From assembly GCA_035504215.1 (NCBI GenBank), contig DATJSI010000044.1, positions 1-62,036 of the forward strand: a DNA stretch of 62,036 bases, given 5' to 3'. Under the pieces are notes generated by a model, which was not told where the DNA came from, made no database searches, and saw nothing but the letters and a program-made list of their open reading frames with translations. Of the stretch, positions 30,249-49,752 are shown in pieces. Made by a program: the position numbers and the translations under genes. The first letter of the stretch is position 1, and every line of letters begins with the position of its first letter. The DNA is from Mycobacteriales bacterium (GTDB lineage: Bacteria > Actinomycetota > Actinomycetes > JAFAQI01).

Positions 30249-30644
30249 AACAATCTCCCGCTACGGGTGAGGTCTTTCGAGTTCGGGGCGTACGCAAGCA
30301 ACCCACACCGGGGCGCGGCTGCCACGGTACGGTCGCGCGCGAAGTCAGGTCAAACCGGCCAGCCCCCGAGCGCAAACGTCAAGCGTCCTCAGTCAAGCCG
30401 ACACGCCGAGCGAGGGCCAGTCAATGTGCGCGAGTGGTTGTAGCGGTGGCGGCCCTGCTGTTAGCGTTCCCGCGCCGACCTTCCCTGACCACCGCTTCCC
30501 CGGGTGGTGCCCGCGCGGCGACGTCGGATGGGCTTGCCCTAGCGTTGCGCGTCACGCCCTGATCCACAGTCTGTGGATGGGGGTGTGGACGAGGCGTTAG
30601 CAGACCGCACGAAGTGGGACTGATCGGGAAGCAGGGGATAGTTC
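30249..30644. promoter_or_regulatory. rpmH-dnaA divergent intergenic region with DnaA-box-like sites
   Basis: 396 bp without a gene. DnaA-box-like sites: TGATCCACA at 30560-30568 (8 of 9 with TTATCCACA), an inverted TGTGGATGG at 30572-30580, and TGTGGACGA at 30584-30592 (8 of 9 with TTGTCCACA on the other strand). They lie 53-85 bp before the dnaA start, suited to DnaA autoregulation. Promoters for dnaA (rightward) and rpmH (leftward) must lie here; I could not fix them. Confidence 0.7.
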
Positions 30645-32054
30645 GTGTCAGACCAGGTCCTCGATCTCGAATCGGTGTGGACCCGCGCGATTGCCGGCCT
30701 CGGTGAGGATCAGGTCTCCGCTCAGCAGCGGGCCTGGCTGCGACTGACCAAACCGCTCGCGCTCGTCCAGGACACTGTCGTGCTGGCGACGCCGAACGAC
30801 TTCGCCCGGGACGTGCTCGACACCCGGCTTCGCCCGCTGGTCATCGAGGCGCTGTCCCGCGAGCTAGCTCGTGACGTTCGCGTCGCGGTCACGGTCGAGC
30901 CACCCGCGGACGCGCACCTGAGTGACGCCGCGGCGGCTGCGGAGTTCGACGACGAGCCGTACCCGATGGAGGACGTCGAGCCGGCGCCGGTGGCTCCGAT
31001 TCGCCGGCCGACCGGGGAACCCGACCGGCTCAACCCGAAATACCAGTTCGAGACCTTCGTGATCGGGTCGAGCAACCGGTTCGCCCATGCCGCGGCGGTC
31101 GCGGTCGCCGAAGCCCCCGCCAAGGCCTACAACCCGCTGTTCATCTACGGCGAGTCCGGGCTGGGCAAGACCCACCTGCTGCACGCAATCGGGCACTACA
31201 CGCGCGCCCTCGTCCCGGGCTGCCGGGTGCGCTATGTGAGCTCGGAGGAGTTCACCAACGACTTCATCAACTCGATCCGCGACGGACGCGGCGAGCTGTT
31301 CCGCAAGCGCTACCGCAACATCGACGTGCTGCTCGTCGACGACATCCAGTTCCTCGAGAACAAAGAGCAGACGCAGGAGGAGTTCTTCCACACCTTCAAC
31401 ACCCTGCACAACGCGAACTCCCAGATCGTGATCTCCTCCGACCGCACGCCCAAGCAGCTGGTCACGCTGGAGGACCGGCTGCGCAACCGGTTCGAGTGGG
31501 GCCTGATCACCGACGTCCAGCCGCCCGAGCTCGAGACGCGGATCGCGATCCTGCGCAAGAAGGCGGCGGCCGAACGGCTCGCCGTGCCCGCGGAGGTTCT
31601 CGAGTTCATCGCGAGCAAGATCTCCTCGAACATCCGTGAGCTCGAGGGCGCGCTGATCCGGGTCACGGCGTTCGCCAGCCTGAATCGCCAGACCGTCGAT
31701 CTCGCCCTCGCCGAAATCGTGCTGAAGGACCTGATCGCCGATGCCGCCGGCCCGGAGATCACCGCGTCCACGATCATGGCGCAGACCGCGGCGTACTTCT
31801 CGATCTCGATGGAAGATCTCTGCGGGTCCTCGCGCAGCCGGGTGCTGGTACAGGCCCGCCAGGTCGCGATGTACCTGTGCCGGGAGCTCACCGAGCTGTC
31901 CCTGCCCAAGATCGGCCAGGCCTTCGGCGGCCGCGACCACACCACTGTGATGCACGCCGACCGCAAGATCCGCTCACTGATGGCCGAGCGCCGCTCCGTC
32001 TACAACCAGGTCAGCGAGCTCACCAACCGGATCAAGAGCCAGGCCCGCGGGTGA
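30645..32054 (+). CDS. dnaA: Chromosomal replication initiator DnaA
   Basis: ATP-dependent origin-opening protein. 469 aa from a GTG. Domain I at residues 1-95, an unusually short variable domain II (about 96-125, acidic; Streptomyces has several hundred residues here), AAA+ domain III with [15 protein letters not shown] and [22 protein letters not shown], and DNA-binding domain IV with [20 protein letters not shown] and the [11 protein letters not shown] signature. Sits between two clusters of DnaA boxes. Confidence 0.98.
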
Positions 32055-32394
32055 GCCCGCGCTGCGGCTTCCCCGAACGTTCCCTCTTGCTGCGCCCCGA
32101 GTCCGCTGCTGGTCGTTCACAGGCTGGGGACAACGCTGTGGACGTTTACCGGTCAGATCGTCCAATCCGGGCCCCCCGCTCGGCACTCCCCAGGAGGCCC
32201 ACGGTCAGCGGTCCGTTCTCCACAGCCGGCGCACATCGCCGGCCGGTGGCTAACCTGCGGGTTCGCCGGTTATCGACAGTGTCCACCGCAGCGACAACGA
32301 CGACCGGATCTGAATCTTCCTGTCATACCGTCAATCAAGACTGTGGATGCGGTGCTGCACCGAGGGGTACGCCGCTGCGTAGCGAAAGGTTGAG
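32055..32394. other. Predicted replication origin oriC (dnaA-dnaN intergenic region)
   Basis: 340 bp without a gene, at the position of oriC in other actinobacteria. DnaA-box-like 9-mers (consensus TTRTCCACA): TGGGGACAA at 32125-32133 (8/9, reverse), TGTGGAC from 32137 (reverse), TTCTCCACA at 32216-32224 (8/9), TTATCGACA at 32270-32278 (8/9), GTGTCCACC at 32279-32287 (7/9), TGTGGATGC from 32342 (reverse, 7/9). No perfect box is visible, as in other high-GC origins. An AT-richer stretch at 32311-32345 before dnaN may be the unwinding region. Gene direction flips around it: leftward to parB, rightward to gyrA. Confidence 0.85.
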
Positions 32395-33528
32395 ATGCCC
32401 ATGAAGATCCGGGTCGAGCGGGACGGCTTCGCCGATGCGGTCGCATGGGCGGCCCGCATCCTGCCGCAAAAGGCTGCACTCCCGGTCCTGGCCGGGCTGC
32501 GGATCGAAGCCGGCCAGCAGGGCAGCCTTGAGCTGTCCGGGTTCGACTACGAGGTGTCCGCCCAGGCTCAGCTGGACGCGACCATCGCCGAGGGCGGCGC
32601 GATCCTCGTGCCCGGTCGGTTGCTGGCCGACATCACCCGAAGCCTTCCGCCGCAGCCGATCGACCTGTCCACCGACGGGTCACGAGTGGTCGTGAGCTGC
32701 GGTTCGTCGAAGTTCACCCTTCCGACCCTGCCGATCGAGGAGTATCCGACGCTGCCCGCGATGCCGTCGGTCGCCGGCACGGTCGGCAGTGATGCGTTCG
32801 CGGCGGCGGTGACGGCGGTTGCGGTCGCTGCCGGGCGCGACGACGCGTTGCCGGTGCTCACGGGGATCCGGATCGAGATCGATGGCGAGCAGGTGACGCT
32901 CGCCGCGACCGACCGTTACCGGCTTGCCGTGCGCACGATGCGCTGGGCGCCGGTCGAGGTCGGCATGCAGGCGACCGCGCTGGTGCCGGCCCGGACCTTG
33001 GCCGAAGCCGCCAAGTCGCTCACGTCGGGTGCCGAGATCAGCCTGTCGCTGGCGAGCAACGCTCCGGGCGAAGGGTTGATCGGGTTGTCGGGTGCCGAGC
33101 GGTCGGCGACCAGCCGGCTGTTGGACGGGGAGTTCCCGAAGTACCGGTCGCTGCTTCCCGACGCGGCGTCCTCGACCGCCAGTGTGGACTCTGCGGCACT
33201 GACCGACGCCGTACGCCGGGTGGCGCTCGTGGCCTCCCGCACCTCACCGATCCGGTTGTCGTTCTCGGCCGACGGCGTGACGCTCGAAGCCGGGGGAGTC
33301 GACGAGGCGGAGGCGCAGGAAAGCCTGCCGGCGTCGTTCGAGGGTGAGCCGCTCACGATCGCGTTCAACGCGACGTACCTGCTGGACGGGCTCGGCTCGC
33401 TGGACTCCGACGAGGCCCGGCTGGCCTTCACCGGTCCGACCAAGCCGGCCGTGCTGACCGGCAAGTCCGGCGCCGACGACGGCACCGACCACCGTTACCT
33501 CCTGATGCCCGTACGTTTAGCGTCGTAG
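32395..33528 (+). CDS. dnaN: DNA polymerase III beta sliding clamp
   Basis: Ring-shaped processivity clamp. 377 aa, three repeated clamp domains (1-125, 126-250, 251-377). Markers: MKIRVERDGFADAVAWAARILP at the start, DRYRLAVRTM in domain 2, and C-terminal YLLMPVRLAS. ATG at 32395; an ATG two codons later (32401) is equally likely, giving the common N-terminus MKI. Confidence 0.97.
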   Translation: MPMKIRVERDGFADAVAWAARILPQKAALPVLAGLRIEAGQQGSLELSGFDYEVSAQAQLDATIAEGGAILVPGRLLADITRSLPPQPIDLSTDGSRVVVSCGSSKFTLPTLPIEEYPTLPAMPSVAGTVGSDAFAAAVTAVAVAAGRDDALPVLTGIRIEIDGEQVTLAATDRYRLAVRTMRWAPVEVGMQATALVPARTLAEAAKSLTSGAEISLSLASNAPGEGLIGLSGAERSATSRLLDGEFPKYRSLLPDAASSTASVDSAALTDAVRRVALVASRTSPIRLSFSADGVTLEAGGVDEAEAQESLPASFEGEPLTIAFNATYLLDGLGSLDSDEARLAFTGPTKPAVLTGKSGADDGTDHRYLLMPVRLAS

Positions 33529-46952: not shown

Positions 46953-48095
46953 ATGCGTGACGCGGTGATCGTCGAGGCGGTTAGGACTCCGGTCGGGCGC
47001 CGCAACGGCGCGTACAAGGACGTGCACCCGGTCGACCTGTCGGCGCACGTTCTGTCCGCGCTCGTCGAGCGAACGGGCATCGACCCCGCCCTCGTCGACG
47101 ACGTGATCTGGGGCTGCGTCGGCCAGGTCGGCGAGCAGACCTTCAACGTCGCGCGCAACGCCGTGCTCGCCGCCGGCTGGCCCGAGTCGATCCCGGGTAC
47201 GACAGTGGACCGCCAATGCGGCTCCAGCCAGCAAGCGGTCCACTTCGCCGCCGCGGGCGTCCTGTCCGGCCAGTACGACGTCGCCGTCGCCGGCGGCGTC
47301 GAGTCGATGACCCGGGTGCCGATGGGCTCATCGATCGGCTCGGACGTCGGCTTCCCATTCGGGCCAAAGATGCTGGCCCGCTACGCGGGCGAGCAGATCA
47401 ACCAGGGACTCGGTGCCGAGACGATCGCCAAGCGCTGGGGCCTCTCGCGCCAGCAGGTCGACGAGTTCTCCCTGTCCTCGCACCAGAAGGCCGCCGCCGC
47501 GATCGACTCCGGCGCGTTCGCCAAGCAGTACGCCGCCGTACCCGGCACGGGTCTCGAAGTGGACGAGGGAGTACGCCGCGACACCAGTCTGGACAAGCTC
47601 GGCGGGCTCAAGCCTGCATTCGCCGAGGACGGTGTCATCACCGCGGGCAACTCCTCGCAGATCTCCGACGGGTCGGGTGCTCTGCTGATCACCACGAGTG
47701 AGAAGGCGGCGGCGCTCGGCCTGAAGCCGCTCGCGCGGCTGCACAGCTTCTCCGTCGTGGGTGACGACCCGATCGTGATGCTCACCGGTCCGATCCCGGC
47801 GACCGCGAAGGTGCTCGACCGCGCCGGGCTCTCGATCGGCGACGTCGGTGCGTTCGAGATCAACGAGGCGTTCGCCCCGGTGCCGCTGGCCTGGCTGGCA
47901 GAGACCGGCGCCGACCCAAAGGCCCTGAACCCGCTCGGCGGCGCGATCGCGATCGGGCACCCGCTCGGCGGATCGGGCGCGATCCTCATGACCCGCCTCG
48001 TTCACCACATGCTCGACAACGGCATCCGCTACGGCCTGCAGTCGATGTGCGAAGGCGGCGGGATGGCGAACGCGACCGTCCTCGAGCTGGTCTAA
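46953..48095 (+). CDS. Acetyl-CoA acyltransferase (thiolase)
   Basis: 380 aa. Thiolase with nucleophile Cys in TTVDRQCGSSQQAVHFAA, catalytic His in GGAIAIGHPLGGSGA and Cys in MCEGGGMANA near the C-terminus, plus EINEAFAPVPLAW. Could act in fatty-acid beta-oxidation or in acetoacetyl-CoA formation; the length and motifs fit FadA-like degradative thiolases of actinobacteria. No partner beta-oxidation genes adjoin it. Its TAA overlaps the stop of the epimerase remnant on the other strand (sequence CTAA). Confidence 0.93.
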   Translation: MRDAVIVEAVRTPVGRRNGAYKDVHPVDLSAHVLSALVERTGIDPALVDDVIWGCVGQVGEQTFNVARNAVLAAGWPESIPGTTVDRQCGSSQQAVHFAAAGVLSGQYDVAVAGGVESMTRVPMGSSIGSDVGFPFGPKMLARYAGEQINQGLGAETIAKRWGLSRQQVDEFSLSSHQKAAAAIDSGAFAKQYAAVPGTGLEVDEGVRRDTSLDKLGGLKPAFAEDGVITAGNSSQISDGSGALLITTSEKAAALGLKPLARLHSFSVVGDDPIVMLTGPIPATAKVLDRAGLSIGDVGAFEINEAFAPVPLAWLAETGADPKALNPLGGAIAIGHPLGGSGAILMTRLVHHMLDNGIRYGLQSMCEGGGMANATVLELV

Positions 48096-49138
48096 CCGCG
48101 GGCCTCGAGGTAGGCGTCCTCGGCGGTGTAGTCGAGGAGCGAGGCGAAGAACTCGTCATCGGGTGCGGGCACCATCCACGCGTCGACGCCGCCCGCCTGT
48201 GCTGAGACCAGCCAGTCGATCTCCTCGGTCACCGTCTCGGCGTAGGTTCCGGCCGGCCGGTAGCCCAGCGCCAGCGCTGCGCTGACATCGAGGACGATCG
48301 GGCTGGGGTGTTGCCAAGGGTTCCGACCGAGCTCGCCGGCCGTGTCGGCGTCGAGCAGGACCTCGTCCCAGTCGTGGCCGAGATGCCGCGCGATCGCCCT
48401 CGTGATCTCGAGCACGGTGGGGGCTTCGGGGTCTGCGGCGTTCAGGACCCGCGCCGCGGGCATTGCCGCGACGGTCTCGATCACGGCGGCGATGTTCGCC
48501 GCCGCGCTGGGGTGGTCGACACCGGCACCGCGGCCGGCCAGGAACACCGCCGGCCGCCGGTCGAGCACGCGCTTGACGTACATCCACTCGCGCGGCCGCC
48601 GGGATCCCGCGCCGTGGACCTTGGACGGGCGCAGCACCGTGACCGGCGCGCCGCTGGCGAGGTAGGCCTGCTCGGCGGCGACCTTGTTGACCGCGTAGCC
48701 CTCGGCCGTGTCGAAGTGCACGTCGCTGCGCGGCGCGACCGTGGGCTGGCTCTCGGCGATCGGTACGCCGTACTCCGGTGGCTGGTCGCTGTTAACCGTG
48801 CGGCCGGCGCCGTCGACGTACACCGCCTTGGTCGACAGGAAGACCACCGACCCGGCCTCCCGGGCGATTGGCAGCAGGGCCGCCGCGTCAGCGGCGGTGT
48901 AGGCGGCCGCGTCCACCAGCAGGTCGGGCGGCGGCCCGAGCCCGGCCAGGGTCGGCAGCAGCGCGGGATGGTCTTGGCGGTCGCAGCGCAGGAAGCTCGC
49001 GCCCGAAGCGAGCAGCGCGGCGGGCATCGCTGCAGGGTTGCGGCCGGTGATGACGACGTCCCAGCCGGCTTAGGGCAGCCGCGCGGTAGTGGCACGGCCG
49101 ATTGCCCCGGTCCCGCCGAGGATCAGCGCACGGGCCAT
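48092..49138 (-). pseudogene. NAD-dependent epimerase/dehydratase (SDR), broken by one in-frame stop
   Basis: The full frame runs from an ATG at 49138: residues 1-22 contain the Rossmann motif LILGGTGAIGR, then codon 23 (49072-49070) is TAA, then AGWDVVITGRNP and the rest of an extended SDR protein continue in frame: VDAAAYTAAD, STKAVYVDGAGRTV, YAVNKVAAEQAYL (catalytic Tyr-x3-Lys), and an isomerase-like C-terminus to 48092. The part after the stop has an open frame with an ATG at 49027 (311 aa), which lacks the nucleotide-binding loop. CCC-TAA-GCC could differ by one base from a Glu or Gln codon. It may be a recent nonsense mutation or a sequencing error. Confidence 0.8.
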
Positions 49139-49177: not shown

Positions 49178-49420
49178 CTACGAGTCGGCGATCCGCTCGG
49201 CGCTCTCGCGTAGCGCCTTGAAGTCCTTGCCGCGGGGGTCGGCCACCAGCCGGTCGGTGGCGCCGAAGCCCCAGCCGCCGTACTTCACCGCAATCCGGGC
49301 AAACCGGTGGGTTGCGACCGCCCCACAGCTGGCACAAGCCCGATCCGCGGTGTCGCCGAGCTCGAGGAGGAGTTCCATCTCGGCGTCGCATTGGGTGCAG
49401 CGGAACAAGTAGAGCGGCAT
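49178..49420 (-). CDS. FmdB-family zinc-ribbon protein
   Basis: 80 aa from the ATG at 49420. The N-terminus MPLYLFRCTQC, with a second CASCG pair, forms the FmdB-type zinc ribbon (residues 7-36). The rest is short and basic/aromatic (KYGGWGFGATDR). The family was named for a regulator of formamidase/methanol genes, but members are widespread with little known function. The promoter side contains a perfect DnaA box (separate entry). Confidence 0.85.
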   Translation of the reverse strand: MPLYLFRCTQCDAEMELLLELGDTADRACASCGAVATHRFARIAVKYGGWGFGATDRLVADPRGKDFKALRESAERIADS

Positions 49421-49428
49421 GGCGCGGC

Positions 49429-49446
49429 TATCCCCAGTGTGGATAA
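49429..49446. promoter_or_regulatory. Perfect DnaA box with an inverted near-match, upstream of the zinc-ribbon gene
   Basis: TGTGGATAA at 49438-49446 is the exact reverse complement of TTATCCACA. It is joined to CTATCCCCA (49429-49437, 7 of 9) in the opposite direction, so the two form a near-palindrome. The near-match begins 8 bp upstream of the FmdB start. This is the only perfect DnaA box I found in the window; those in the origin are imperfect. Confidence 0.75.
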
Positions 49447-49503
49447 CGGCTGTGGGCAAATGACATGGCTGTGACTACGTGGCTGTTACGGGCACACGCC
49501 CGC

Positions 49504-49752
49504 TTAGCGCCATTGGGTCGAGGTCACGAACCCGGCGATGATGAAGCCGAAGCCGACCAGAAGGTTCCAGTTGGCGATCGACTTGATCGGCAGACTTCCC
49601 CCAGTGACGTAGAACAAAACCAGCCAGACGATCCCGACCAGGAAGCAGCCGAGCATGAGCGGGCCGACCCAGGGCGCGCTGACCCGCTTCTTCACCGATC
49701 GGGTGGGTGGCGGGGTATAGGCCGCCTTCGTGCGAACTCGTGACTTAGGCAC
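49504..49752 (-). CDS. crgA: Cell division protein CrgA
   Basis: Small membrane protein of the actinobacterial divisome, linking FtsZ, FtsQ and PBPs. 82 aa from a GTG with GAGGAGG in front. Basic N-terminus (KSRVRTKAAYTPPP), two transmembrane helices (about 30-50 and 62-80), ending TSTQWR as in other CrgA proteins. Position near trpG-pknB is conserved. Confidence 0.95.
   Translation of the reverse strand: MPKSRVRTKAAYTPPPTRSVKKRVSAPWVGPLMLGCFLVGIVWLVLFYVTGGSLPIKSIANWNLLVGFGFIIAGFVTSTQWR

Follow-up and report, generated by a model that had tools for sequence, protein, structure and literature searches.

The DnaA-type box TTATCCACA at positions 49438–49446 (minus strand) of the window, the whole 62,036-nucleotide stretch of DNA analysed here, is of interest not as a single box, being the middle box of a 52 bp composite element (49426–49477, minus strand) that lies between crgA and an FmdB-like gene. 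Judging from the conservation of this element, the site is probably one of the boxes of a non-coding DnaA-regulating locus that lies close to the origin, is conserved in actinobacteria and is under the control of MtrA, with DnaA and MtrA as the predicted binding proteins. The element probably helps to control when the chromosome is copied.

Read along the minus strand, the element consists of an MtrA-like direct repeat, box III, 4 bp, box II, 1 bp and the inverted box I. The repeat, GTCACA-N5-GTCATT with an 11 bp period (49459–49475, minus strand), is a predicted site that fits the published MtrA consensus forms. Box III (TTGCCCACA; 49451–49459, minus strand) has one mismatch to TTRTCCMCA and was aligned with the boxes of other families, box II is the perfect TTATCCACA, and box I (CTATCCCCA; 49428–49436, plus strand) is separated from box II by a single base. 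The element lies just 3' of crgA (49504–49752, minus strand), which encodes the cell division protein CrgA (Pfam PF06781, E = 8.7e-27), and the gene for an FmdB-type zinc ribbon protein (49178–49420, minus strand; Pfam PF09723 Zn_ribbon_8, E = 4e-10) begins just past it. These two genes are co-directional, and the element fills most of the 83 bp gap between them, with box I ending 7 bp before the fmdB ATG. The original prediction described a near-palindrome before the FmdB-type gene, and the partner box was indeed found there; as it begins at 49428, the predicted start of 49429 was off by one, and box III and the MtrA-like repeat had been overlooked. A reductase/epimerase-like gene is also present in the window (48092–49138, minus strand) with an in-frame TAA after 22 codons, within the nucleotide-binding start, and is either a pseudogene or the product of an assembly error.

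The exact sequence TTATCCACA occurs only once in the whole window, where 0.01 copies are expected from dinucleotide shuffles and at least one copy was seen in 1 of 100 shuffles, and the box is, as originally claimed, the sole perfect one. The distance of 17 kb from oriC was likewise confirmed, the origin region with its weaker DnaA-type boxes being the dnaA-dnaN gap (32055–32394) flanked by dnaA (30645–32054) and dnaN (32395–33528), both identified using Pfam. This gap includes no exact TTATCCACA, and sites with one mismatch to it were found at 30560 (TGATCCACA), 32216 (TTCTCCACA) and 32270 (TTATCGACA). The claim that all of the origin boxes have mismatches holds for TTATCCACA but not for the looser actinobacterial form TTRTCCMCA, to which the origin has one perfect match (TTGTCCCCA; 32125–32133).

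In the source assembly (3.47 Mb in 150 contigs), TTATCCACA was found five times, apparently unclustered, and the reversed pattern once, while ~1.8 (first-order) or 0.3 (second-order) copies are expected genome-wide from the composition of the window. Copies are few rather than many, in agreement with the original prediction. The related pattern TTRTCCACA occurs 12 times genome-wide, compared with 14 for its reversed control, and, as there is no excess, simple counting gives the site no special status. When the other exact copies of TTATCCACA were inspected, one (contig C112) was found upstream of a DUF222/HNH-like gene, and a related site, TTGTCCACA, in contig C33 was also upstream of such a gene. 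Both genes presumably belong to the DUF222/HNH endonuclease family, and a search of NCBIfam returned no match for either. These two sites (around position 1501 of loci L004 and L006) include facing box pairs (TCCACAGCTGTGGAYAA) and are followed by a downstream stretch common to both.

Whole genomes were searched using a sequence-only profile (R1) built from 30 elements of other families, with none from the family of the window. The best match in the source genome was the element at 49426–49477 (47 bits, E = 5.6e-12), which was also the only strong match in the window; the next separate site had an E value of 0.0076, and the other copies of TTATCCACA were absent from the matches in this genome. 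Across 13 genomes of the order, the element 3' of crgA was the best match in 11; the only one of the 13 from outside the family, G012, had contributed to R1. In the remaining two, G007 and G008, the best match was at a different site, and crgA was not found in the G008 assembly.

A second profile (R2) was built from 31 elements. Of the 16 mostly complete genomes that were searched with it, five had contributed to the profile (G053, G073, G088, G111 and G193). The best match was at the locus in 12 of the 16, weakly so in G082 (E = 0.03), whereas in G044, G091 and G118 the best match was weak and by dnaA, and G089 gave no match at the locus. Among 80 genomes drawn from the whole phylum, 31 gave R2 matches at E ≤ 0.001, and 25 of these were among the 73 genomes from outside the class. 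The loci of seven of the 25 were checked, and crgA was close by in all seven, with FmdB or thiolase genes there too in most. The source genome was not reported at E ≤ 0.001 in the 80-genome search.

Conservation was examined 3' of crgA in 118 loci, which represent 37 families of the class and were obtained from three collections (23, 79 and 16 loci, the 79 being 80 less one repeat). A crgA match was present in 194 of 196 class genomes, and the loci read were among the matches listed, with some of the many Streptomyces-like ones omitted. In 102 of the 118 loci, the 250 bp 3' of crgA contained two or more boxes (TTRTCCMCA, one mismatch allowed) within a span of 80 bp; the same was true of 8 of the 2360 dinucleotide shuffles and of 6 of the 869 control windows taken from these loci. 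The MtrA-like motif, TNACAN4TGTNA within the same 250 bp, was found in 91 loci, 104 shuffles and 12 control windows. Boxes and motif were present together in 85 loci and in none of the 2360 shuffles or 869 control windows, the latter consisting mostly of coding DNA. As the rules for the motif and for the layout of the boxes had been chosen after inspection of the 118 sequences, the same rules were applied unchanged to 77 held-out loci (80 of 519 relatives, less three already seen), in which Pseudonocardiaceae, Streptomyces and uncultured actinobacteria are over-represented. The box pair was found in 72 of these, the repeat in 66 and both in 63, compared with none of 1127 held-out control windows, again mostly coding.

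That the site is merely a chance box-like word would be in keeping with the small number of exact boxes genome-wide and with the lack of an excess of TTRTCCACA over its reversed control, but this explanation is refuted by the E value obtained genome-wide with an outside profile and by the held-out loci, and we give it practically no weight. The locus is kept in relatives, as the original prediction would have it. However, perfection of a single box is not the property that is conserved. Among the eight family and order loci, the exact TTATCCACA is found in the window only; the six other loci of the family have the same order of parts with diverged letters, and the boxes in this family are mostly imperfect.

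The element is kept beside a crgA/ppiA-rhomboid gene cluster. In G033, the crgA match is ~128 kb away on the other side of the origin, and the element is still by ppiA-rhomboid, 45 kb from dnaA. In G014, a gap of about 1.75 kb separates crgA from the element, which adjoins the rhomboid gene. The retention of the element away from crgA in both genomes indicates that the locus is not tied to crgA. Both family f32 loci examined have mtrA and crgA in the genome but do not have the element. In 23 genomes where both could be placed, the element is ~11–132 kb from dnaA, assuming a circular chromosome where the record starts at dnaA, and this proximity to the origin could merely reflect synteny of the gene cluster. 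In G033 (C1:46875–46978; L304), where crgA has moved away, MtrA-like and box-like units are each present several times, so that the element is multiplied. A possible link to the crgA region was also noted in a strong Mycobacterium tuberculosis CRP ChIP-seq site within Rv0010c, which we take to be the gene neighbouring crgA. According to Table 1 of PMC4117774, Rv0010c holds one of the strongest such sites in M. tuberculosis.

The MtrA motif of M. tuberculosis is given, in an excerpt of PMC11215152, as two 7 bp repeats (t/c-G/t-T/a-n-a-C/T-c) with a 4 bp spacer, an MtrA motif is described in an excerpt of PMC6265350 as a nine-base repeat with 2 bp spacing, and that of S. coelicolor appears in an excerpt of PMC13189361 as GtnAcC-n5-GTnAcn. 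These published motifs are degenerate direct repeats with a period of ~11 bp, and the repeat in the window has the same form, GTnA(C/T) with an 11 bp period. Reading the MtrA-like motif as an inverted repeat was rejected, as there was no covariation beyond independence (34 observed vs 30.9 expected, permutation p = 0.21, 76 distinct sites). Of 21 genomes searched, 20, the source genome (382.9 bits) among them, have a protein scoring above the curated cut-off of the MtrA model, and the sole genome without one, G051, is also without the element, though this is one case. The motif was missing from 10 of 10 family f15 loci, although the f15 genomes that were tested have mtrA. MtrA is described in PMC5487470 as binding oriC and interacting with DnaA, and crgA is not mentioned in the main texts (supplementary tables aside) of PMC5487470, PMC13189361 or PMC11215152. 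In a fourth MtrA paper, crgA appears among the references only.

A second composite of an MtrA-like repeat and a DnaA-type box was observed before nrdR-nrdJ in the source genome (C135:48713–48743; L176 and L308), and similar composites precede nrdR-nrdJ at L168–L174 and L177 in the family and order of the window. The NrdR of the source genome was identified using TIGR00244, and NrdJ and the other nrdR-nrdJ loci by eye. DnaA is described as also controlling a ribonucleotide reductase operon in E. coli.

In 84 of the 116 loci scored with a GC3 heuristic (2 of the 118 were too short), crgA is followed by a convergent gene, and this bears on whether the element is an operator through which MtrA and DnaA act on the expression of crgA or of the gene after it, which in the window is fmdB. 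Such a role would suit the way in which the element occupies the crgA-fmdB gap almost up to the fmdB start codon, fmdB is also the next gene in some other families, and the nrdR-nrdJ composite in the family of the window is similar. However, the next gene is mostly convergent, no promoter- or terminator-like site overlapping the element was found, and the element persists without an adjacent crgA or fmdB, making the operator explanation improbable. An fmdB promoter as a general role was rejected because the position upstream of a co-directional gene is not conserved, and regulation of fmdB, one of the functions originally proposed, is therefore not the general one, given the mostly convergent next gene and the retention of the element where crgA has moved. 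A local effect on fmdB in the source species is possible, as box I ends so close to the ATG.

Boxes II and I make up an inverted repeat that is situated between gene ends, and the element could therefore be an RNA feature, for instance a terminator hairpin. This is largely refuted and very unlikely, since pairing between the boxes (88.5%) was no better than for shuffled partners (88.1%) and one pair is broken in 15 of 30 cases, the z-score for the RNA fold of the element was +0.77, and no T-run terminator was found at the element.

The arrangement of the boxes was examined allowing up to two mismatches per box, a facing triple being a tandem pair plus one more box that is turned towards the middle one. 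A facing triple was found in 98 of the 118 loci, representing 33 families; in seven the boxes were all tandem, in one they were divergent and in 12 there was no triple. In the held-out set, 66 of 77 loci had the facing triple, with one divergent and 10 without, compared with no facing triples and two alternating ones in the 1127 control windows. The commonest spacings, 4 bp between the tandem boxes and 1 bp between the facing boxes, were found in 53 of the 98 facing triples. The triple was seen in both directions relative to the repeat, giving the orders repeat-(+)4(+)1(-) and repeat-(+)1(-)4(-).

The DARS1 and DARS2 cores of E. coli MG1655 read as (+)3(+)5(-), and the facing boxes I and II are stated in excerpts of PMC10380432, and also of PMC5742627, to be a hallmark of DARS and to be required for their function. 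Box I is opposite to boxes II and III, as in DARS, both in the window and in most loci, but the spacings there are 4 bp and 1 bp rather than the 3 bp and 5 bp of the DARS core. As the orientation is DARS-like but the spacings differ, the element is not called a DARS.

Another explanation is that the cluster is purely a DnaA sink, which would bind DnaA soon after duplication and lower free DnaA by titration as at datA, with the repeat only tuning the binding. The element is ori-proximal in every genome measured, and its usual convergent intergenic setting resembles that of E. coli datA, which lies between glyVXY and queG. The D78 cluster of S. coelicolor has reportedly been found to lower the initiation frequency, which would also favour a sink. 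Nonetheless, a compact and fixed triple is unlike E. coli datA, where the boxes are widely spaced over about 250 bp, and there would be no reason for a mere sink to keep its orientation and spacing. The datA-like convergent setting is found in most loci, and in the window itself the element lies between co-directional genes. We regard the sink as conceivable but rather doubtful.

For the preferred reading, a DnaA-regulating locus under MtrA control, the following mechanism is proposed. DnaA would bind the three boxes as a small oligomer, and phosphorylated MtrA would bind the adjoining repeat, either promoting or blocking the assembly of DnaA. As the locus doubles soon after initiation, it would then adjust either how much active DnaA there is or its nucleotide state, and hence the timing of the next initiation, which would in this way be tied to cell-division signalling through MtrAB. 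The box orientation, by analogy with the E. coli DARS core, suggests reactivation of DnaA, whereas the origin-proximal and mostly convergent setting, by analogy with datA, suggests inactivation or titration. We lean slightly towards a DARS-core-like assembly, though the effect on DnaA may have either sign.

The E. coli regulators SeqA, Hda, Fis and classical IHF are, to our knowledge, absent from actinobacteria, and it is for this reason that the limiting of replication to once per cycle is poorly understood in this group. One small locus that is conserved throughout the class and also outside it, whose layout can be tested and for which a candidate regulator can be named, would offer a direct starting point for work on Streptomyces, mycobacteria and corynebacteria. 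If this is indeed a second lineage that keeps the DARS-type box orientation, it would bear on whether the recycling of DnaA by DNA is ancient.

DnaA-control loci outside oriC are already known in E. coli. In Streptomyces coelicolor, ori-proximal DnaA box clusters H69, H24 and D78 were reportedly described by Smulczyk-Krawczyszyn in 2006, a study said to cover one genus and to describe no class-wide conservation, MtrA site or DARS-like layout. H69 is, we assume, the cosmid bearing crgA, and the H69 cluster may be the Streptomyces form of the element. In the portion of the open literature covered, which did not include Smulczyk-Krawczyszyn 2006, no description was found of a DnaA box cluster at crgA, nor of any such element shared by a whole class or phylum, or of its MtrA-like part.

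The original interpretation is partly supported, in that a DnaA-acting site, either datA-like or DARS-like, fits the finding of a deeply conserved, ori-proximal and compact three-box cluster. Like DARS1 and DARS2 of E. coli, the element is non-coding and its three boxes comprise a tandem pair and one box turned towards the middle one; it also has a predicted site for a further regulator beside the boxes, as DARS2 has sites for IHF and Fis. Besides its spacings (4/1 bp vs 3/5 bp), it differs in bearing an MtrA-like repeat and in its position near the origin, whereas the DARS are located mid-replichore. In most loci, as at datA, an ori-proximal cluster of DnaA boxes lies between converging transcription units, but the box triple of the element is only 32 bp long. 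The combination of an MtrA repeat with DnaA boxes is also a feature of the MtrA sites at mycobacterial and streptomycete oriC, though the element is a separate locus tens of kb from oriC. It may be, and we propose this tentatively, that most actinobacteria have, near oriC, a DnaA-control locus that is dedicated to this role and maintained independently, and whose DARS-core-like triple is directly wired to the response regulator of the MtrAB cell-division system, making it the counterpart in this phylum of DARS and datA, with MtrA in place of IHF and Fis.
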